From NCBI RefSeq assembly GCF_009730915.1, contig NC_052482.1, forward strand, positions 20,800,345 to 20,864,344: 64,000 nt of DNA, written 5' to 3'. The stretch is from Dioscorea cayenensis subsp. rotundata. Its lineage: Eukaryota; Streptophyta; Magnoliopsida; Dioscoreales; Dioscoreaceae. Both the position numbers and the translations under genes were made by a program. Below are positions 19,267 through 63,507 of this stretch, one piece after another; positions within the stretch are counted from its first letter, which is position 1, and each line of letters starts with the position of its first letter. The notes under the pieces were generated by a model. It saw nothing but the letters and a program-made list of their open reading frames with translations, searched no databases and had not been told where the DNA came from.

Positions 19267-19290
19267 TTAGGGTTAGGGTTTAGGGTTTTA
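19267..19290 (+). repeat. Telomere-like TTAGGG/TTTAGGG motif
   Basis: TTAGGGTTAGGGTTTAGGGTT gives three G-strand telomeric units. Confidence 0.75.
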
Positions 19291-19437: not shown

Positions 19438-19467
19438 AAACCCTAACCCTAACCCTAACCCTAACTC
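19438..19467 (-). repeat. Telomere-like CCCTAA motif
   Basis: AAACCCTAA followed by three more CCCTAA units and CCCTAACTC. It is in the opposite orientation to the motif ~150 bp upstream. Confidence 0.8.
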
Positions 19468-21436: not shown

Positions 21437-23019
21437 ATGCCTCAGGCTCCATCAACAAGGTGGTGCCCAACACCAGAACAACTAATGATTCTGGAGGAGA
21501 TGTACAGGAGTGGGATAAGAACTCCAAATGCATCACAGATACAGCAGATAACAGCACACTTGTCTTACTATGGTAAGATTGAAGGCAAGAATGTCTTTTA
21601 CTGGTTCCAGAATCATAAGGCCAGGGACAGGCAGAAGCTCAGGAGGAGACTCAGCAGACATCATCAGCTACTGCACCAACAACTTCATACTTTGGATGAA
21701 GCTTCTGCTCCTCCTCCTCCTCCACCTTCTTGTCTTCCTCATTACCTCCATACTCCATCTCAGCTTCTTCACCAGGTCTATCTTCTTCTTCAATTCTTCT
21801 CATCATAAACAAAAAACAAACTATATATATATATGTATATATATGAAGATGAAGGTGATATAGGTATGCAAGAGGTTGATTTTAGGGTTAGGCAGTACTG
21901 TCACCTTAGTTTCTTCAGCAAGTTTTCTCATTTAGCTTCTTGTTTTATTTATTTGATGATAAGAAGTTGAAGAGACTTAGCTTTTGCTCAAGAAATAAGT
22001 AAAGGAAATGTTTTAAGGTTAATTTGGTTCTTAGGGTTTTGATAGAATGTATTGGCAGCTCAATTTCTTCAGTAGGTCTTCTCCTTTTGCTGCTACTTTC
22101 AGATAATTTTTTTCAGAATGAACAAGCTATATGATAACAAGTTGAAGAAATTTTTTAGGATTAGCTTAAATTTTAGGGTTTTGATCATAAGTAAGCACTG
22201 CTATCTGATCAGTTTCTTGAGTAGGTCTTCTACTTTGATATTTCCTTTGTCATAATGAATAAACTGAGCTTTGCTAACCAAGAAATAACAAGTACATGAA
22301 ATGGTAGAAGAAGTTTTAGCTAGGGTTTTGGATCAAAAGACTCAAAACTTAAAGCACTGCACTTCAGTTTCTTTGTCAGGTCTTCTCCTTCTGCTGCTGC
22401 TGCTGCTGCTGCTGCTCTCCTCTAATTTTCTCATAATGAACAAACTATAAGATAACAAGTTAAAGAGACTGAGCTTTTCTCAGAAAAGAAGTAAAAAAAG
22501 AAACTTATTTTCTAGGGTTTTAATCAAAAGCACTGCCATCTCAGTTCTTTCAACAGGTCTTCTCCTTTTGCAGTTCCTTTAATCTTTTCACATTGCACAA
22601 ACTATCTCATAACAAGTTCAAAACACTGAGTTTCTCAAAAAACAAGTAAAAAGAATTCTCTACAAGAGTCTTTTTAGGGTTCTGATAAAAGAAAAAAACA
22701 CACACAGAGACAATGCTGTATTTCATGGTTACACATTATGAATATTATATGAATTTTGATCACTCAGGATGCAAACCAACAAGCAATGAATTTACTGAGC
22801 AAGTTAGAAGCAGAAGGGATATCGGAAATGGCGACGACATCGAGCAGCATGAATTACAACAATGATTGGATGACGATGATGATGGCCGGTAACACCGGTA
22901 TAATACCTCCATGCTGCAAGCCTCTTGAAACTCTAGATCTCTTTCCTACTAAAAGCACTGGACTTAGAGATGAATGCAGCACCTCCAAATCCTCATCCTG
23001 CTCCACATCTACCAACTAA
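21437..23019 (+). CDS. WOX3: WUSCHEL-related homeobox 3 (PRS/NARROW SHEATH-type)
   Basis: Two exons, 21437-21775 and 22768-23019, in phase 0, give 196 residues. The protein begins [20 protein letters not shown], the typical WOX3 start. It continues through the homeodomain (residues ~5-68; third helix [20 protein letters not shown]), then a His/Gln/Pro-rich linker. The WUS box TLDLFP lies at residues ~168-173 in [20 protein letters not shown]. The C-terminus SSSCSTSTN matches NARROW SHEATH/PRS proteins. WOX3 acts in leaf and floral-organ margins, recruiting lateral-domain founder cells, partly by TOPLESS-dependent repression through the WUS box. A gene-free stretch of ~4.8 kb upstream may hold its enhancers. 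The intron is unusual: it is made of tandem copies of a unit that includes the exon-1 donor context. Start and both junctions are well supported. Confidence 0.95.
21761..22700 (+). repeat. Six diverged ~150 bp tandem copies filling the WOX3 intron, including the splice donor
   Basis: Each unit begins with a TTCTT(C/T)...(C/T)AGGTCTTCTCC-like string, continues with TCATAATGAACAAACTAT.AGATAACAAGTT.AAGAGACT.AGCTTT, and ends with TTTTAGGGTTTTGAT.A.AAGCACTG. Units start near 21765, 21911, 22065, 22214, 22369 and 22545 (spacing 146-176 bp). The first copy starts inside exon 1, so the real donor CAG|GTCT is part of the unit. Copy 5 has a (CTG)n expansion at about 22388-22416. Confidence 0.85.
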
Positions 23020-24815
23020 ATTTGCAACATTATTGCATCAATGTATGAATGTTATCACTAATTAATCCCTTGTTGTTCTTGTTCTTGTTCTTGTGCTGAT
23101 GTTGTTGTTGTTGTTGTTGTTGTTGTTGTAGTTTGTTAGTGTAGAAGAAACTAGTATTTTAACTTTGTACGTCAATCTACATGCAGTACTTGTTTTGATT
23201 CGCTTGTTAACAAAATGGAAGACTTAAGAGTCTCTCTTTCTATGAGTAAACCTTCTCTAGTTTCTAAAAGCTGGTCATATTCAGTACCCTGAGAATTGAA
23301 GGACTAGTATAGAACCAGCTTTTATTGAATTATGTGGTCAATCCTACACAAAAACCTAGGCTTTCTTCTTCTTTGTATCTTCATCTCTCTCCATCTCTTG
23401 TGTCTCACTTCTTATGCATGCATGCATTTATTGGAACAAGCAAAGCAAAAAAGGGAAAGCAGGAGAAAGAAGGAATTCACAAGGTTCCAAGCTAAATATA
23501 TAACTAGTTTTCTCTTCCTTGGGTTTTGGAGCTTTTTTTTAGCTGCCATTGCTAAGATGGGGAATAGCTCAAAACCCAAATCAGTTCTGATCAACAGTCA
23601 AGTACTTGTACAAATGTTAGCTTTTATTAGATTACTTGTAGATACTTTTTAATATATACTTGTCTTATTATAATAATAGATTTTTTTTTTTACTTGACAC
23701 ACTTGTAAAAGTAACAAAATTACTTGACAGTATTAATGTCCATTTACCCTTTTAATTTTTGTTTTACTTATAATATAATCCCTTTTTATAATGTATATTA
23801 TTAACTATGGATGAGAAATTATGATTTGTTCAAAACTAAAACTAGATGCACATATGTAGTTGGTTTGAGCATAAAACATAAGAGTTTTTTTAAGTAAGAA
23901 TAGAAAGGCATTTAAATATACTACTGTCCAGCTTTAAACATCAAAATCTATTTTTAGGGGGGAAATTCACAAAAGTGAAAGGGTGAAAAGTAATTTTGTT
24001 ACCTTACAGGGAGTCACAAGAAAAGACCCTTATGATAATGGATAATGGAGCCACAAGCTAGAATCTAGTGTACATAAAAGGCAGGGTATATAGACTCTAG
24101 TAACAAGTTAGAGTCTTCCCTTCTATTGAATTTAAGCACTAGGTATAGAATTAGAGTTCAGATGGATTTCACTACTCATGGATCATTAATTCTCTCTTAC
24201 CATGCAGTTTGAGACTTCAATGGAGTTCATTCAGTCTGCAAGGAAGTTGATGCTTTAATCACTGGTTTTTGCCATCTTGGGAAAGAAGAAAAAAAAAAAA
24301 AAGAATTAGGGTTTGTTGGTTCATAAAAATATAATCCCTAGGGCATAGACCAATCCCCCCATTCATTGGTTTAATTCTCTCTTACCATGCAGTTTGAGAC
24401 TTCAATGGAGTTCATTCAGTCTGCAAGGAAGTTGATGCTTTAATCACTGGTTTTTGCCATCTTGGGAAAGAAGAGAATTAGGGTTTGTTGGTTCATAAAA
24501 ATATAATCCCTAGGCATAGACCAATCCCCCCATTCATTGGTTTTATTGAAGTTTGTCTGTCCCTATGCTGCTTTTTAATCAAGTCCAAACCACCACATTA
24601 AATAAATAACTAAATAATAAAACAAAAAAATATATAAGAGAGTTTAGAACTAGGTAATATATAGTTTACATTTCACACAGCCACGCATGGAGTGGTAATT
24701 TTCACAAAATAATTGGAATATAATGAATCAATTGAAAGATACATCATGTATATATAAAATATATATATATATATACTGCATGAGATTTTTACCATTTACT
24801 TTTACCTCTGTTTCT
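23020..24815. other. WOX3 3' UTR and spacer to the kinesin gene
   Basis: GTT/CTTGTT repeats at 23073-23130 lie in the WOX3 3' UTR. The remainder is AT-rich. An open frame at 23332-23652 is considered and rejected elsewhere. A tandem duplication occupies 24187-24542. Confidence 0.5.
24187..24542. repeat. Recent tandem duplication, unit ~172-184 bp
   Basis: Bases 24187-24370 and 24371-24542 are near-identical (TTAATTCTCTCTTACCATGC ... CCCCCCATTCATTGGTTT). The main difference is a longer A-tract in the first copy, near 24290-24302. Confidence 0.92.
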
Positions 24816-27800
24816 TTAATTTATGGCACTAAGAGGTGGCCTTGAGGTGTCATTAGTATGCAAATAATGCTTTGCATCTCCATTGGCTGGCTTGGAAGGA
24901 GACTTAGCTTCCCAAAATGACTTCAATAGCTCTTCAAAGGGTGGAGTTATTAATTCCTCTATAGATGTCATGCTGGGCAGATTGATTCCTCTTTTCTTTG
25001 GGGTTGAACAAGTTGGTTCATCCACCTGGGTAAAATAGCAAGGAAACAATGAGAATGATGATGATGTTTCCTCTATAAATATTTATAATGCAGTAAGAGC
25101 CTTACCATGTAATCATCAACCAAACATTTCCCTGCATTCTCAGAAAGCTCCATGATCTTGTGATTATGGCCAACTTTCAATTCCCTCAACTGCTCGCGAG
25201 CAGGGGCAATTATGAAATCGACATTGGCACATGCATCATGATCGAGTTTCAGAGAACCTGGAAACAATTAATGTAAAATCAAGTTTAATCCTTTGATTGA
25301 TATATGTTAATAATAAAAGCAGAAATAGTTTTTACATTCAATGGAGGAGAGGATGGCTTTGTTTGCAACATCAACATCTTCGAGAGTAGTTGAGACTGCA
25401 GATGATAATCTTGAATGTAATTGTTGATTGTCTTCTGTTGCACTCCTGTTATGAGGAGAAAAAAGTTTTTCAAAAAACCAATGGAAATTAATATGGTCAG
25501 ATTGCAGTGATAGATATAAACTACCTGATAATGGATTCTACAGATGATAGATTTTCTTTCCCAAGGCTAACCAGAGCACTTTGAGCATTTTGCCATTGTT
25601 CTGATCCCATTCTTGCTTTAGCCAGGCTGCAAGGTCCCACATAAAGTAGGATGAGAAAGGCAGAATCCAAAGTTAAAAATGAAATAAAGGATTCCATTCC
25701 AGTATTTTTCATACCAGTGCCTAAAACCTTCTTCCATGGAGCATTTGCTGCTTTCCACCGCTGCTGTATTGTCTTTATAGTTATTTTCTGTTTCTTTCAT
25801 GTGAACAGCCCATTGTTCTTTGGCTGATAAAGTAAATTCCCGGGCAGTGGACATTTCTTTCTGTAGACTACTTGTTCTCTCAGCAGCAGCCTCTCGAAGA
25901 CCATCAACTGTTGTTTGTACCTAAAACAAATGTGGAATATCAGGCATATGGGAACTGTGGGCATTGCAACTGTTTTTTCATTCATTTTTGTTTAAGATTG
26001 TTCAAATATTGAAGCTTGCCCAAAAACTTGCCAACTTCTCACTCTCGGATGCCCATTAAAACACACCTCAATCGTTAGGCTCCTCTAAAACTTGAGCCAT
26101 CAAAAGCAAAAAGAAAGCTCAAAAGCTTGGGTGGAAATAAAGCAAGAGGAGATTTGAAGTACTTCCAAAGTAGAGTTAGCTTTGGAGAGTGATTCAACAA
26201 CTTTAAAAATGAAAGGATATTCACTCCAAAATCAAGAGGACAGCCATTCTACCAAAGGCAAGCGACAGTAAAGCCCAACCATTTCTCAGACAAGAGAGGT
26301 TTTAAAAAGGAGATTTATTCATGTTGATTTTAAGCAGAATGGCAGCTCAAAAGCTTGGGTGGAAATAAAGCAAGAGGAGATTTGAAGTACTTCCAAAGTA
26401 GAGTTAGCTTTGGAGAGTGATTCAACAACTTTAAAAATGAATGGATATTCACTCCAAAATCAAGAGGACAGCCATTCTACCAAAGGCAAGCGACAGTAAA
26501 GCCCAACCATTTCTCAGACAAGAGAGGTTTTAGAAAGGAGATTTATTCATGTTGATTTTAAGCAGAATGGCCGTTCTTCAAAACTTACCCTCGCTAAAAC
26601 CTACCCTCGCTCTAAAAAAAGGATACAAAATCCAACTACTATGTTCTAAATTAAAAAAATCCTTTTTTCTATTTTTGTGAAGAGTTCATGGCATTTTTCT
26701 CATTTATTTTTATATTTTAACATGTTAAGTTGATCTTAGAAATCCACGGTATGCATCTTCTTTGCAAGCATATCACCTTTTTGCACACCCTCTGTCTACC
26801 CTTGTTATCTACTCACCAATACAAGTGTCTGTTCAATATTCAGGGTTTGAGTTATAGTTCAAGTCGAGAATGTTTGAAGAAAAAGAAGATATGCACCAAA
26901 CTACGCATGCACACCTAATCAAGAGTGATCAGCATCACAATTGGCACTTATATTTGGGTTAAAGGGATGTTAAACATCAACCAAACATTTAAATATTATT
27001 ATGGATTTCTGTGCCTTTTCAAACAGTTTTCATGTATATTTCTGCCCAAAGGATTTAAAACTACTTGCTTAATGAAGCTAAAACCTAAAATAATTTACTA
27101 ATAAAAGATGACTGCATGCTTTTCAAATAGAAATAAATTTCACCATACCAAGTACAGATTTTGAAGCATATAATCAGAAACTGAAAATATTGATAAGAGT
27201 GTCAGGTACCAGTATTTTCTTCCTGGCATTTGAACCAGCTAGCATCTCCGCTACTTTCTCAAGCAGCTGCCTTTCTTCATTAGCAGCACACTCCTGCAAG
27301 CATAAAATACAAATTGTAAGAAATGGATTTCGTATTCCCATAACCAACTAACAGTTTATAGGGTTTGGTAGGTCACCTCAAATCTCTTCTCAAGCTGAGA
27401 GAGTTGCTGATCATGTATGACTTGTGTTTCCTTCAATATTTTGTTCAAATTAGAATCATGTACATCTAAAGTATGGAAGAAACCAGTCACAATCTTTGCA
27501 ATAGATCGCGTTGTTTCCATGGCTCTGAGATGCCCCTGTTTATAGTGATGAAAACAAATATATTTGAATCAGCAAAAATTAAGCTTTAGAAATGAACCTA
27601 TATAGTGAAATATCTTTTAGCTCTCTGAAGTAGAGAAGCCAACCTCTTGTTGCCGCTGTGCAAAAGCAGACAATTTATCTTCTTGCTTAATGAGGCCATT
27701 TTGAAGTTCATTAATTAACTGTCCAGCTTCTGCAACAATGTCCTTAAAGGACTGTAGCATAGACAAAGGTGATACACTTGCTAATCCACTAAAATTTGAA

Positions 27801-50152: not shown

Positions 50153-52729
50153 CCTATCAGATAGTGACATGGTTGTGCACTGCCTCAGCTGGTTTACCAC
50201 GTGAAAGAAAGAAAGAAAGAGCCTCTATATCTATCGAACAAACAAAAACAAGGATTATTCACTAATCAGGAATTGGATCAAATGGCTGATAAATCATTAC
50301 TATTCATTCTAGCTCTCATGCTCATTCATGGCAGCAAATTTAGTCAATGGTTGCATAAGGTCTGAACACAATGCTCTTCTCATCTTTAAAGCAAGCCTCA
50401 TAGACCAACACAACAGTTTCTCACCATGGAATGAGAGTAGCAAAAACTGCTGCAAATGGGCAGGTGTGCACTGCACCAGAAACAACACCGGCCATGTCGT
50501 TCACCTTGATCTCTCTGGCTGGTCTCTGCAGGGCAACCTCACTGAATCCCTACTCAATCTCACTCATCTCCAGTACCTTGATCTAAGCAATAACTGCTTC
50601 AATAGCAAACCAATTCCCAATTTCATTGACTCGTTAAAACACTTGGTTTATCTCAACCTTGGTGTCTCATGGTTTCAAAGGAGTTATACCCCATGAGCTC
50701 GGCAACCTCTCAAAGCTAATGTTTCTTGATCTCAATGCCAATGATAATTATGACGCCAGTAGTTGATGATGCCACATGGCTATCTCATCTTTCTTCTTTG
50801 AAATATGTAACCATGAATGGTGTGGGACTAACTAGAGTAACAAACATCATGCAATCTATCAACAATCTTCCCCACCTCGAAGAAGTTTATCTAAGGCAGT
50901 GCTCCATAGACAGTCTTCCTCAGTCTATCCCAAATCTCAACTTCACATCCTTAACTATCATGGACATTGGAAAGAACTTATTGCATAACACTAGTATTCC
51001 AGACTGGCTTTTCAGAATACCCAACCTGGTTGTTTTGAAAATGGACTGGTGTGGCTTCAATGGCACCATCCCTTCCTCCATTGGCAATGCAACAACGCTT
51101 GAGTTTCTAGACTTGCAGTGGAACCAGTACATGTCTGGTGACATTCCAAGAGAGCTTGGGAACCTCTGCAAAATCCAGCAACTTAATTTTGGTGGTTATA
51201 CATTCTCTGGTCAGAGCTTGGTGGATTTTGAAAATGCATTTTCTGGATGCATCAAGAACAGTTTGAGTGTGTTATCATTCTATGGTAGCTACATGACAGG
51301 TCATTTGCCGGACTGGTTGGGTGATCTCAGAAACATCACTAAGCTTGTTCTTTCGCTGAATTACTTCTCTGGCTCCATCCCTGAGTCTCTTGGAAGACTT
51401 TCAAGGCTGCAATTCATGGATCTTTCATTCAATAATTTGAATGGCACAATCCCTATCTCCATTGGGAGACTGTCATCACTGCAATCTTTGAACCTTGAAC
51501 AAAATCAGTTGAATGGTGTTATTCCTGAGAGTTTGGGACAGCTATCAGAACTAGAAATTTTGGCTCTCGGAAGCAACAACTTCAACTTTTCAGTCATCAC
51601 TGAAGCTCACTTTGCTAATCTTACCAGTCTCAAGAATTTATACCTAAGTGACTTAGTTCTTAATATAAGCTCTAATTGGCTTCCCAGGTTTAAAGCTGAC
51701 ATCATAGACTTGAGCTCCTGCAAAGTGGGGCCCAAGTTTCCTGCATGGCTGGAAAACCAGGTGAACCTTTCAACACTGATGATGTCTAGTGCTTGGATCG
51801 AGGACTCCATGCCTGACTGGTTCTGGAACATCACATACAACATGACTCTCTTGGATCTCACTTACAATAAGATCAGTGGAAGCTTGCCTTCTCACTTGAA
51901 CTTTCAACCTCAACTGCGGAGTGTTATTCTTTACCTGGGCTTCAATCTCTTTGAGGGTTCTGTGCCTAATTTTCCTCCTAATGTTGCAATTCTGGACTTA
52001 ACCAGCAACGCACTCTCAGGAACCATTCCTTCTGACATTGGTGAAGTGATGAATTCATCTCAACTCTTGCTCCTCTCTTTCTCTTCAAACAACCTGCACG
52101 GTGGCATTCCAAATTCTCTTTGTAACTTCCCAAACCTTCACATTCTAGACCTGTCGAATAATAATCATTTGACAGGAGAGATCCCAGATTGCTGGAACAA
52201 TTCACAAGCACTGGGATACCTGAACCTGGCTAACAACATGCTCGAAGGTGATCTTCCAATTTCTTTAGGTTCTCTTCAATCACTTCAAGTGTTGGACTTA
52301 AACAATAATAGTTTGCATGGAGAGTTTCCATCTTTTCTAAAGAACTGTACTTCTCTGATCACTATTGATCTTGGTCACAACAAGTTCAGCGGTAAAATAC
52401 CAACTTGGGTGAACCAAGACATGATTTCACTCATGATACTCAACTTGGGATCAAATGATTTCTCAGGTGATTTACCTTTATTATCTAATCTCACTCTGCT
52501 TCATTTCTTGGATCTTTCCTATAATAGTTTCACAGGAACTATACCGAAATCTTACGGCAACTTCAGTAACATGGTGAATGTTATTGACAATGAAGGAGCA
52601 TCATTTTCTGAGTACAGTGACTACAGTCTGTGGACATCATTTTCTAAGGCCAGTCTCTGGACATCATTCAACACATATGTTGCTGTCAGTGCTGGAGCAT
52701 CATTTTCTATGCCAAGTCTGTGGACATCA

Positions 52730-53164
52730 TGTTAGCATCGGGTGAAAAAGAATGTGAATGAACTCTCACAAAACACTCAGATTTCACACTCGAAATGAGT
52801 TCTTAATGTAACAATGGAATGAAGGAAGAAATGTAAAGAGGAAGGAGATAAATCAGATGCTCTGAAATTCCTTACTACCGTTTCATTAATTCATTCAAGC
52901 ATTTAAACAAACAACTGATATGCATGCCAGTGAAGCAGCATAGTTCATACCACCAGAACAATTGAAACATAAGAATACAAACATACAGTGAAAGTAAATA
53001 CAACAATAAGATAAATTTAGCTTGATGTGATTCCCAATTCAGTGCTGAATTGAAATCTCTTCGGCTGTGGTGGAGAGTGAGCTGGAGACTGGGAGTGAGT
53101 GAAGGAAACCTGGGGAGCAAGCCTCAGTGGCTTCAGTGAAGTGTCTGATCAAACATCCTCAACA
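52730..53164 (-). repeat. Copia 3' LTR (left copy)
   Basis: 435 bp, begins TGTTAG and ends CAACA; preceded by CATCA. A purine-rich AAGGGGAGGA (minus strand) directly adjoins its inner edge (about 53165-53174) as polypurine tract. Confidence 0.95.
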
Positions 53165-56100
53165 TCCTCCCCTTGATCAGAGAAGTCTCTAATTCCCAGC
53201 TCAAGTCTCAGTGCTTCAAACTTGCATCTTGGCAATGGTTTGGTAAACGAATCGGCAAGGTTCTTTTCAGTCCTGCAGTGTTTAACATCAATTGCTTCAT
53301 CTCTTATAAGATCCCGGATGAAGTGAAAGCGGGTGTCAATGTGCTTTGTACGCCCATGGTGGACAGGGTTTTTGGCGATACAAAGTGCAGACCGATTATC
53401 ACACCAGATGAAAGTGGAGCCAGATTGTGCTTCATTCAAATCTCCCAACAAACGCCTCAACCAAACGACTTCACAGAAAAGCAGCGATCAAAAGAAATAT
53501 ACTACGCTTGCGTGCTAGACAGGCGATGATGGCTCGTTTCTTGGAGCACCGGGGCTATAGCTCCTGAACCAAGTGAGAAAATCCATCCCGTGGTACTCTT
53601 CCGGTCATCCTGAGAACCGCTCCAATCACTGTCAAAATAACCAAATAATTTAAAAATTCTCACCTCGTTATAATGAATCCCATAATTAATCGTTCCATCG
53701 ATATAGCGTAGGATTCTCTTCAAGGCTCCCAAGTGATGCATACTTGGTTTTTTTGCATGAACCGAGATGACAAGGAAGCGACTTGAGCTATGTCTGGTCG
53801 AGTATGAGATAAATATAATAGCCCCCCAATTAACCTTCGGTATCTCACTGGATCGGGTTTCTCCCTGAATCGTCAAGCAGAGAGAGTTTTTCATTTGCAT
53901 TCATAGGTGTATCAATTGATTTGCAATTCTCCATCCCGACTGCTGAAAGTAAATCAGCAGATGAATCGTGTTGAGATACAAAGATTGATCCTTTCTTCTG
54001 AGTAATTTCAAGACCAAGAAAGTACCTCATTGGTCCGAGATCAGACATCTCGAAGGTATTCATCATGGAGTTCTTGAATTCCCTTAGCTGCATCTCAGAA
54101 GAACCCATATAAAGGATGTCATCGACATATAAACAGAGTAGCAGAACACTATGATCTTCTCCCTTCTTACAATACACAGTCGGTTCATTTGGACTGCGAA
54201 CGAAGCCCAACCGAGTGAAATATGCATCGATGTGACTGTACCAAGCTTGAGGAGCTTGACGGAGGCCATACAAGGCTTTGTGAAGTCGATACACACAAGC
54301 TTCTTTTCCTTTCACTATAAACCCTTCCGGCTGTGTGACAAAGACCTCTTCCTTGAGCTCTCCATTAAGAAAAGCCGATTTAACGTCAAGTTGATAAACT
54401 GTCCATTCTCGTTGAGCACCAATGGACAGAAAAATCCTCACTGTCTCCATGCGAGCAACTGGAGAGAAGATTTCTTCGAAATCAACTCCCTCCTGCTGAG
54501 AATACCCTTTTGCCACAATACGAGCTTTCTTCCTTAACAGTGTTCCATCTGGATTAAACTTCGATTTGAAGACCCATTTCAAACCGATTGTTTTCTTCCC
54601 TTCTGGTAGAGAGGTTAAACTCCATGTTTTGTTTTTAGTAATTGCAGTAACTTCTTCCTTCATGGCTGCAATCCAATCTTTATGCATCGCAGCATCTTCG
54701 TAAGTGATGGGATCTCCAACAGTGAGAGCAAAAGAGCAAGAGTGATAGATTTCAGAGAGATTTCGGTACCTCATCGGAGCGCCACCGTCTTCTCCGACGA
54801 GTTCTTCAATATCTGGAGAAGAAGAGCAATTTGGAAGATGACAATCCAGCCGTTCAGAGAACTGATCGAACGGTGTGGATTGTGCACGAGTTTTGGTCTT
54901 TGAAGTCACGTTTTCCTCACGTGCGGGCTCACAGTTTGATGGAGCTAACTCAGCACGCTTCAGCCAATCCCACGCCTTTTCTTCGAAAAAGCGAACGCTT
55001 CTGCTGACGTGTACGCGTTTAGAATCCGGAACGATGATCTTATAGGCTCTCGAGATTCCGCTGTAGCCAATGAAAACACCGGCAAGTGACCCGGAGTCAA
55101 ACTTCGACCTGAGTTGCGGGTCAACGAGTATGAACGCCAGGCACCCGAAGACTCTGAAGTGATCCACACTCGGTTTCTCTCCGGTCAAGGCTTCCAAAGG
55201 CGTTTGGAGCTTCACAGCAGAGGTGGGAGACCGGTTGAGAATATAGACGGCGGTGGCGACTGCTTCGGCCCAGTACTCCGGCGGCACAGACATTTGCCTT
55301 AACAGGGTGCGCGCCATCTCTGTTACAATCCGGTTCTTCCGCTCGGCCACTCCGTTCTGCTGAGGTGTTCGAGGAACAGATAGTTGATGCCGAATACCTG
55401 CATCTCTGCAAAAGGTATTGAATTCGGTGGAGGTGAACTCTCCCCCACGGTCAGTGCATAGTATCTTCACTGGGAGAGACAATTGCTTCTCCACCAACAC
55501 TTTGAACTCTCTGAATTTTTCAAAAGCTTCTAGCTTTCTTTGTATAAAGAACACCCAACTGTGTCTTGAGTAATCATCAGTTAACAAAAGGAAATAGATA
55601 TTACCTCCTATGGATGGAGTATTGATTGGTCCGACGAGATCTGCATGAATTAACTCCAATGGAGCTGCTGCTCGCTTTGCCATTCCTTTGGGAAACTTCG
55701 TCTGTGTTTGCTTTCCTTGAGAGCAAGCTTCGCGAGGTTGTACATTCGTCGATGTTTGGTATCCCCGACACCAGCTCGTTGCTCTGTCCGGTTGCTTGAC
55801 TTCTTCACATTTATATGACCATACCTTTTTATGCCGAGGTCGGGAGACCTCTCCAATTTGATGCCGAATAGGCAAATCCGACATCATCTGCTTCCAAAGG
55901 GAAAAGGTTGTGGGTGGTCATGCATACCTGTGCTATTCGAGCTTTGGATTCGACATTCTTGATGTTGCACACTCCTTCGGTGAACTCAACATCATACCCG
56001 GAATCCATTAATTGTCCAACGCTTAATAGGTTATGAGCAAGGTTGGGGACGAATTGCACATCATTCAAGGTAGTTAGTCTTCTCTGCTTGAACAGAGAAC

Positions 56101-57189
56101 CACACTTCCAATTCCCTCGACTTTGAGAGCATTCCCATCTCCCATCGTGATTGATCGACATGGGAATCGCTTCAAGACTTTGAAGCATTCACATCTCCCG
56201 GTCATATGGGTCGGAGCAACCGCTATCAATGAGCCAAACTCCTCCCTGCTTTTCTCGCTTTCTTCACTAATGGCCATAAATGCAACTGTCTCCTCTTTTC
56301 TTTTCCTTTCTCCTTTTTCTTCTTTTTACAATGTTGGCTTCTCGTTTCTATACCAACACCGGGCTTTCACATGCCCAAATTTCTTGCACACAAAGCATTG
56401 AACATCTTTGTGTGTCTTGCTACCTTCTATTTGGGCGACTATCCTCCATGCGACCCGACGATCGAAAGCTTCTGCCGCCCTCTTCCTCTTCCTCTGTTGT
56501 ACTGACGACCACGTCCTCTTCCTCCGGCTTGAGCATATCCTCTTCCAATGTGAAGAGCTTTTTCTCCTTCCTGATGTTGTTCTCCTTCGATATTTAGTAT
56601 GGACTCATGGTTCTTCAACAAGCCACTGAGTTCTTCTACCGTGAGAGTGCTGAGGTCTTTTGCGGATATGATGGAGTGAACCACCTGAGAGAACCTTGAT
56701 GTGAGACCTCTCAAGAGTTTGGACACAACAGTCTTCTACGGGAGTTCTTCTTTCATAGCTCTAATCTGGTATACAATGTCCAGGACCTTGCTAATATAAT
56801 CTTGGACTGTTTCTCCATGCTTCATCTTGACAGCATCAAATTCCCGTTGAAGAGAATGAATCTGGACAGTTTGATTAGTTGTATTTCCTTGGAATTCTGT
56901 TTTGATGGTTTCCCAAGCTTGCTTTGCTGTTTTAGCTTCTGAGATTCTCACAAGGATTCTGGTGTCTAGAGCCTGTTGAATGAGATACAAGGCCTTTGCA
57001 TCCTTTTTAATACATTCATTCAAACGAGCTCCGTCACCTTCTTCGCTGAATCCTTTCTCCACTAGTGTCCACAGATCCTTGGACCTGAACATCGTCTTCA
57101 TCATCAAGCTCCAGAGATTATAGTTTTCTCCTTTGAAGAATGGGACATTGGCATCCCGTGCAGATGAAGAGCCAGACATTCTAACTGTT

Positions 57190-57200
57190 CTCTGATACCA
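57190..57200 (-). other. Primer-binding site of the Copia element
   Basis: The minus strand reads TGGTATCAGAG, complementary to the 3' end of initiator tRNA-Met, one base inside the 5' LTR. Confidence 0.85.
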
Positions 57201-57201
57201 C

Positions 57202-57636
57202 TGTTAGGATCGGGTGAAAAAGAATGTGAATGAACTCTCACAAAACACTCAGATTTCACACTCGAAATGAGTTCTTAATATAACAATGGAATGAAGGAAG
57301 AAATGTAAAAAGGAAGGAGATAAATCAGATGCTCTGAAATTCCTTACTACCGTTTCATTAATTCATTCAAGCATTTAAACAAACAACTGATATGCATGCC
57401 AGTGAAGCAGCATAGTTCATACAACCAGAACAATTGAAACATAAGAATACAAACATACAGTGAAAGTAAATACAACAATAAGATAAATTTAACTTGATGT
57501 GATTCCCAATTCAGTGCTGAATTGAAATCTCTTCGGCTGTGGTGGAGAGTGAGCTGGAGACTGAGAGTGAGTGCAGGAAACCTGGGGAGCAAGCCTCAGT
57601 GGCTTCAGTGAAGTGTCTGATCAAACATCCTCAACA
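57202..57636 (-). repeat. Copia 5' LTR (right copy)
   Basis: 435 bp, same ends as the left copy and differing from it at about eight positions; followed by CATCA. Confidence 0.95.
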
Positions 57637-58353
57637 CATCATTCAACCCATACTTGAACATGTCTGTGAAAACAAAAGGGGGAAACTTCCAGTTCGGCAA
57701 GTTGCTTTCATTTTTAAGACTCATGGATCTCTCCGCCAACCATTTGTCAGGCCAAATCCCTGAAGAAATACCTGACTTGCTTGCCTTGCAAAGCTTGGAT
57801 TTATCAGGTAATCAGCTGACCGGTCAAATTCCTGCAGATATTGGTCTTATGAGATCACTAGAGTCTCTTGATCTTTCAAAAAATAACCTTACTGGACCTA
57901 TTCCGACAAGCCTGTCTTCACTGGATTCACTCGGTCACTTGAACTTGTCTTACAATTAACTGGTCAGGAGAAATTCCGTTTATTGACCATTTGACAACTT
58001 TTGATGATCCATCCATCTATGTTGGTAATCTCAATCTTTGTGGATCTCCATTGCAAAAGAACTGCACAAGTTATGTTACAAGCCGAAATGAAGATGAAGA
58101 AGAAGATGAAAGTGGAAATGATGGAATGCTTTGGATATATATTGGTTTGGTATCAGGTTTTGCGGTTGGTTTCTGGACAATGTTCGGCATAATTCTGTTC
58201 AATAAGATGTGGAGGTATGCTTATTTTAGATTTGTGGATTATTTATTTGACAAGGTTTATGTAATGGTTGCTGTGGCCGTATCAAAGTTCAGGAGGAATT
58301 TGGTGAAGATGAAACTAAGGTTGATCGGAGCTCTGCTTGCTACTAATAATTAA

Positions 58354-62675: not shown

Positions 62676-62753
62676 AATTCTCTTGTGGGGAATTATTCTC
62701 TTTCTTTAAAAGTCCAAGGACTTTCATGTAATTTTCATTATTATTATTTTTTT

Positions 62754-63507
62754 AACTAATGGTGACAAGTGCTGTGAAAGAGACAAGTAAATACAGTAGT
62801 GCATAAGTTATAATCCTGAAAAATTTACCATATAAAAACAAGCTAACACATAAGGTGATACATCAAAAATCATAATTCCAAAGTTATAAACCCTATATAA
62901 GATTTCTCTTTACAAATAATTTGGTGAACAGTTAATGAATAATACTGATATTGTATTTATAATATATATGTATAGTTTTATACAATACTGCGACACAAAG
63001 ATTCAACTAATGGTGACTAATGCTGTGAAATAGACAGATAAATACAATAGTGCATCAATTATGATCCCAAAAAACTTATCATATAGAAATGGACTAACAC
63101 ATAAGGTGATATATCAAAAATCACAATTCCACAGTTATAAACCCTATATAAGATTTCTCTTACAAAAAAAAATGGTGAACAGTTAATGAATAATACTGAT
63201 ATTGTATTTATAATATTTATGTATAGTTTTATACAATATTGTGACACAAAGATTCAACTAATGGTGACCAGTGCTGTGAAAGAGACAGATAAATACAATA
63301 GTGCACCAATTATAATTCCAAAAAATTTACCATATAAAAGTTGACTAATATATAAGGTGATACATCAAAAATCACAATTCCACATTTGTAAACCCTATAT
63401 AAGATTTCTCTTACAAAGAATTTGGTGAACAGTTAATAAATAATACTGATATTATATTTATAATATTTATGTATAGTTTTGTTACATAATACTGCGACAT
63501 AAAGATT
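62754..63507. repeat. Three 251-bp tandem repeats
   Basis: Unit start AACTAATGGTGAC...TGCTGTGAAA at 62754, 63005 and 63256; unit end ...ATACTGATATTGTATTTATAA...TACAATACTGCGACACAAAG. Divergence between copies is low (about 5-8% by eye), so the array is fairly young. No coding frame. Confidence 0.93.

Follow-up and report, generated by a model that had tools for sequence, protein, structure and literature searches.

New introns can arise from duplicated segments that carry splice signals, a route set out in the Rogers model and exemplified by a potato RdRp gene, both of which we cite from excerpts of one report (PMC4974935). According to these excerpts, the tandem duplication in the potato gene includes splice signals and extends over an exon-intron boundary; the first intron contains another tandem duplication, of 83 bp. 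Via the same source, the fission-yeast genes SPOG_01682 and SOCG_00815 have one intron extending over several tandem 24-bp AGGT segments (excerpts of PMC4974935). The intron analyzed here lies in a window of 64,000 nucleotides, i.e. the whole stretch of DNA under study, and shares features with both systems: as in potato, tandem duplication includes splice signals, and as in fission yeast, one intron spans several tandem AGGT units. It differs from the potato case, as far as the excerpts describe it, by affecting the 5′ boundary, by having six units and by the probable lengthening of an existing intron without formation of a new one. The fission-yeast unit is short and wholly exonic in the excerpts, whereas the unit found here consists of about 20 nt of exonic and about 130 nt of intronic sequence. 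With respect to the Rogers model, AGGT is present in the duplicated segment (at the true junction and in four of the five later units); the segment is, however, largely intronic, and no new intron was made, since three paralogues share the place of the intron. In searches of open-licence papers, we found no report of intron growth by a duplicated 5′ boundary in this form, and we regard the intron as clearly exemplifying a known process, though at a position where it is not often seen.

The gene is taken by us to be a WOX3-class WUSCHEL-related homeobox gene and presumably acts as a regulator of the plant leaf margin. It encodes a protein of 196 aa with a homeodomain (Pfam PF00046, E 1.4e-14). 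Near the C terminus, the sequence TLDLFP was spotted by eye in the translation, which we take to be a WUS-box-like motif. The features of the gene and of its intron are as follows (supporting evidence in brackets; a slash marks a splice junction or the corresponding junction in a unit).

21437..21775, plus strand: exon 1 of the WOX3-like gene, 113 codons, with the homeodomain (PF00046, reading frame, paralogues)
21756..21775, plus strand: the portion of unit 1 that lies in the exon, formed by the final 20 nt of exon 1, CATCTCAGCTTCTTCACCAG (unit-profile scan; rotated model)
21776..22767, plus strand: intron, phase 0, 992 bp, donor CAG/GTCTAT, acceptor CTCAG/GATG (open frame, splice phase, paralogue introns)
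21776..21921, plus strand: intronic part of unit 1, decayed, with an AT microsatellite inside (weak)
21806..21808, plus strand: first in-frame stop codon (TAA) when the true donor is skipped
21922..22075, plus strand: unit 2, junction decayed to AAGT
22076..22224, plus strand: unit 3, TAG/GTCTTCT
22225..22379, plus strand: unit 4, TAG/GTCTTCT
22380..22556, plus strand: unit 5, CAG/GTCTTCT, with an internal CTG run at 22391-22416
22557..22720, plus strand: unit 6, CAG/GTCTTCT, the last unit, cut short, end approximate
21883..22681, minus strand: six telobox cores (AACCCTA), one per unit, at 21883, 22032, 22174, 22321, 22513 and 22675
22768..23019, plus strand: exon 2 with TLDLFP, presumably WUS-box-like (reading frame, paralogues)

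The array thus comprises six units, five clear ones (units 2-6) and a decayed first one. In the repeat search, the unit junctions (AGGT; AAGT in unit 2) were located at 21776, 21922, 22076, 22225, 22380 and 22557, corresponding to spacings of 146, 154, 149, 155 and 177 bp. Chance similarity of the copies, named beforehand as the outcome that would speak against an array, was excluded for units 2-6, as all ten pairwise alignments surpassed every one of 200 shuffles with preserved dinucleotides (z 3.9-19.7). The similarity of unit 1 to units 2-6 is weak, exceeding the shuffle maximum in one of five comparisons (z 1.6-5.0). Jukes-Cantor distances were 0.23-0.81 among units 2-6 and 0.57-0.94 between unit 1 and units 2-6. 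Because the units have diverged, the array is missed by Tandem Repeats Finder, which at a score of 50 reported only the CTG run within it. AGGTCTTCT is intact in four of the five later units, while unit 2 has AAGTTTTCT. The recognizable end of the array lies near 22694-22720; the sequence-only reading, according to which the whole intron of ~990 bp is an array, therefore holds for the six units but not for the final ~50-70 bp of the intron. Most likely, the copies are old, decaying and passive. For the intron, RNA folding was no better than that of 20 shuffles (z 0.43; at least as good in 13 of the 20), and Rfam searches at gathering thresholds gave no match, the only match in the window being a tRNA elsewhere.

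According to the same reading, the first copy begins inside exon 1. For this aspect, the window was searched with a profile derived from units 2-6 under eleven flank settings, and a larger background consisting of the window outside the gene and 20 genome stretches under four. In the window scan, the end of exon 1 scored higher than all 125,960 other positions when the 20 nt preceding the donor were used. It was equalled or surpassed by 1,338 of 125,880 positions when the upstream flank was extended to 60 nt, and by 11,138 of 125,950 with 25 nt downstream alone, ungapped. In the larger background, one of 523,164 positions was as good as the exon-1 end with 20+0 nt and none of 522,812 with 20+8 nt, while 133 of 523,164 were as good with 12 nt upstream and 8 nt downstream and 12 of 522,856 with 15 nt upstream and 12 nt downstream. 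Therefore, the homology extends over ~20 exonic nt and the GTCT, beyond which gaps are needed; it is short, pyrimidine-rich and dependent on the flank chosen. A model of the rotated units from which the exon end was left out matched 21756-21801 (E 0.01), and the model from units 2-6 in unrotated form matched 21876-21920 only (E 0.097). The start of the first copy inside exon 1 is thus supported by the profile match at 20+8 nt, and the view that the true donor was part of the unit, with a donor-like version in later copies, agrees with the occurrence of AGGT at the true junction and in most of the later units.

Paralogue loci were sought in the 584-Mb assembly in which the window sits. The closest relatives are L016 (91% in the query), L017 (71%) and L018 (74%) on contig C7, three WOX3-like genes arranged in tandem within ~17 kb (G000:C7:30138500-30160400). 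Searches of viral contigs and genome contigs confirmed no WOX relatives. At the shared position, the paralogues have introns of 83 bp (L016), 81 bp (L017) and 89 or 95 bp (L018, with two possible donors), in none of which array units were found by the unit model. The donor region of L018 is changed (TCTTCAAGTACTGGTCTC). As these array-free introns of 81-95 bp occupy the same place, an existing intron would have been lengthened after the split from the paralogues. Synonymous distances between the window gene and L016, L017 and L018 were 1.25, 1.60 and 1.37, respectively, values above 1 being near saturation, and 0.18-0.33 among the three paralogues. Since the Jukes-Cantor distances of the units (0.23-0.94) are smaller than the synonymous distances to the paralogues (1.25-1.60), the array is probably younger than this split. 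No homology of the window intron to the paralogue introns was detected in twelve of twelve comparisons (z -1.7 to 1.7), so that the ancestral intron length is not directly readable from them. The unusual donor CAG/GTCT is common to L017 and the window gene, while L016 has CAG/GTAA. An unrelated donor context in orthologues whose intron is free of repeats had been named as a finding that would contradict the proposed origin. Tried on the paralogues, which are not orthologues, the donor context was clearly common to one of the three. At the other end of the intron (22763-22773), exon 2 of the window gene is without the four or five codons that precede the shared DA(N/D) start and that read GGAQ, LGGAQ and EGTQ in the paralogues; it seems that either the acceptor of the window gene moved ~12 nt downstream or those of the paralogues moved upstream.

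Taken together, the units, the match at the exon end and the array-free paralogues support the proposal that the intron was lengthened by repeated duplication of the exon-end/donor segment. We consider it likely that this was an ordinary spliceosomal intron whose 5′ boundary segment was repeatedly duplicated in tandem. The duplicated segment of ~150 bp would have started ~20 nt before the end of exon 1 and run across the 5′ splice site into the intron for ~130 bp. The first copy would still supply the true donor, which is presumably the one used, together with the end of the exon, while the five later copies, each with a replica of the exon end and donor, would sit in the intron and be spliced out with it. 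Growth would then correspond to the interval between the junctions of units 1 and 6, i.e. 781 of 992 bp, and the remaining ~211 bp would represent the single-copy ancestor intron. Creation of the intron by duplication was rejected, since this intron position is occupied in the three paralogues as well. If duplication of the boundary is the correct explanation, orthologues are expected to differ in the number of units, and those with a short intron to have retained an exon end similar to TCTTCANCAG/GT.

As a measure of how common such repeats are, tandem pairs or arrays with a period of 80-320 bp were counted, a number that takes in two-copy pairs and low-complexity stretches. They are frequent in this genome, with 44 in 193 kb of sampled sequence (20 stretches on four contigs, positioned manually); the window contained 18, compared to none at the same score in one block-shuffled control, which applies to the window scan only. 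Repeats spanning at least 600 bp were less frequent and accounted for 3 of the 44 in the sample and for 3 of the 18 in the window, this array included. Another part of the window (26104-26576) contains a 228-bp tandem duplication, which is recent, given its 99% matches. By inspection, a leucine-rich-repeat receptor-like gene at 50313-58353 is apparently split by a Copia-like retroelement, which has minus-strand reading frames at ~53149-57203; the C-terminal part of the receptor-like gene resumes at 57621.

Instead of the boundary, the interior of the intron could have been duplicated: the array would have been born within the intron, and the end of exon 1 would then have been extended into unit 1 by a downstream shift of the donor. 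We consider this order of events unlikely. It would fit the length of exon 1 in the window gene (339 nt), which is longer than in L017 (300 nt) and L018 (297 or 303 nt), and the fading of the profile match ~20 nt before the donor. However, in the array-free L016, whose exon 1 measures 327 nt, the exon ends in a related sequence (TCTTCAACAG/GT), for which only 2 of 522,812 background positions matched the unit profile as well (20+8 nt), and the intron position is common to the paralogues. The exon ends of L017 (120 of 522,812 positions as good) and L018 (1,381 or 2,858) gave weaker matches.

A further explanation, compatible with an origin by boundary duplication, concerns the retention of the array, which may have been kept as a cis-regulatory cluster whose teloboxes bind TRB/AZF-type factors that recruit PRC2 to the gene. 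Although doubtful to a still higher degree than the donor shift, it has several points in its favor. For Arabidopsis, recruitment of PRC2 via teloboxes and TRB has been reported (excerpts of PMC8948837 and PMC8408475). The telobox core TAGGGTT is the only 7-mer present in all six units; read as AACCCTA, the core occurs in six of six and AAACCCTA in four of six units. The run of seven invariant columns at TAGGGTT had a permutation p of 0.004 for the six units and of 0.024 for units 2-6. In the window, AACCCTA was observed 25 times compared to 6.5 expected occurrences. Telobox clusters were also denser at 14 other loci found with the homeodomain query (23 in 44.9 kb) than in the sampled sequence (54 in 193 kb; p 0.013), but these loci are mutually related and the background is sampled sequence, not a genic control. 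Moreover, the six copies derive from one duplicated motif and their count is therefore not independent. In the rotated five-unit alignment, which misplaces the motif of unit 5, the conservation of TAGGGTT (0.74) is no better than the average (0.74), and the three short paralogue introns contain neither AACCCTA nor TAGGGTT. A link between WOX3 and H3K27me3 was sought and is absent from the excerpts of PMC5442315 and PMC5483022.

With the telobox-containing Polycomb response elements of plants, the window intron has in common the repeated AACCCTA cores and the developmental homeobox gene. It differs from them in that its motifs are intronic, were multiplied by duplication and are known from sequence alone. 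Marginally less probable again is an extended version, in which boundary duplication would have built a telobox cluster with distances of about one nucleosome (142-192 bp), so that intron growth would have created a Polycomb recruiting element, with the telobox of each unit under selection and the rest decaying. Telobox cores are also found elsewhere in the window, namely one per unit in arrays of 185-bp and 251-bp units at 24186-24547 and 62751-63480, respectively. About 2 kb upstream of the gene, two telomere-like stretches of opposite orientation (19267-19289 and 19438-19467) are situated ~150 bp apart. In the paralogue L016, exon 1 includes the telomere-like sequence CTAACCCTAACCCTAACCCTAATCC (L016:1323-1347) in its coding portion, where it is translated into a run of Asn-Pro.

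With regard to splicing, pairing with U1 was calculated for 48 GT sites in 21700-22767. The true donor (-5.6) ranked third of the 48, tied with 21864 and with the donors of units 5 and 6. It was surpassed by two GT sites outside the unit junctions, 21855 (-6.7) and 22375 (-5.7), and the donors of units 3 and 4 (-4.0 each) and of unit 2 (-1.4, poor) were weaker. The several cryptic donors of the sequence-only reading are accordingly to be understood as predicted sites. Read-through past the true donor is predicted to reach the TAA at 21806 after ten codons and to give a protein of 123 aa without the WUS box. Because of this in-frame stop codon, the idea that use of a downstream copy would add residues to the linker between the homeodomain and the WUS box had to be abandoned. 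Unit 2 has lost its AG. When the four later AG sites were considered as acceptors, one was in frame with nine stop codons and three were out of frame.

Recursive removal around a tiny exon has been discussed for Arabidopsis (excerpts of PMC4674806), and the units might likewise represent recursive splice (ratchet) points, although this is very unlikely. Since in a later unit a pyrimidine stretch and AG are joined to GT, stepwise removal would leave the protein unchanged, whereas stop codons or the wrong frame result if splicing uses a later donor or takes one of the four later AG sites as acceptor. By inspection, AG/GT is preceded by a pyrimidine-rich stretch in four of the five later units, as in recursive splice sites, and AGGTCTTCT is the best-kept block of the rotated alignment, its own window being the only one of 111 with four of five copies intact. 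On the other hand, AGGT alone is unremarkable, as 11 of 116 windows are equally well kept. The consensus of a good donor half is GTRAGT, and all five later units have GTCTTC or GTTTTC, which is far from it, with U1 pairing of -1.4 to -5.6. A weak, non-consensus donor half and a short intron thus separate the units, which are defined by their nucleotide sequence only, from recursive splice sites.

Plant introns frequently gain dispersed repeats or transposons, but the landing of such an element in the intron hardly comes into consideration as the source of the array, since the units form a tandem series whose register matches the splice junction and the profile search found no further unit copy in the window. 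Likewise, no other unit copy was obtained when the whole intron served as DNA query against the 584-Mb assembly, in a search that scores the best candidates only and skips very common words. Beyond the intron itself, it returned five matches of 35-44 bp to positions 30-86 of the query, i.e. the AT-rich microsatellite of unit 1.

Duplication of the 5′ boundary is therefore the explanation we prefer. Judging from the sequence and from the three paralogues of this genome, an intron can become several times longer when its 5′ boundary is duplicated, with no new intron gained. Replicas of a splice site within an intron are apparently tolerated, and those described here would offer a natural test of how the spliceosome chooses one donor among near-identical ones.
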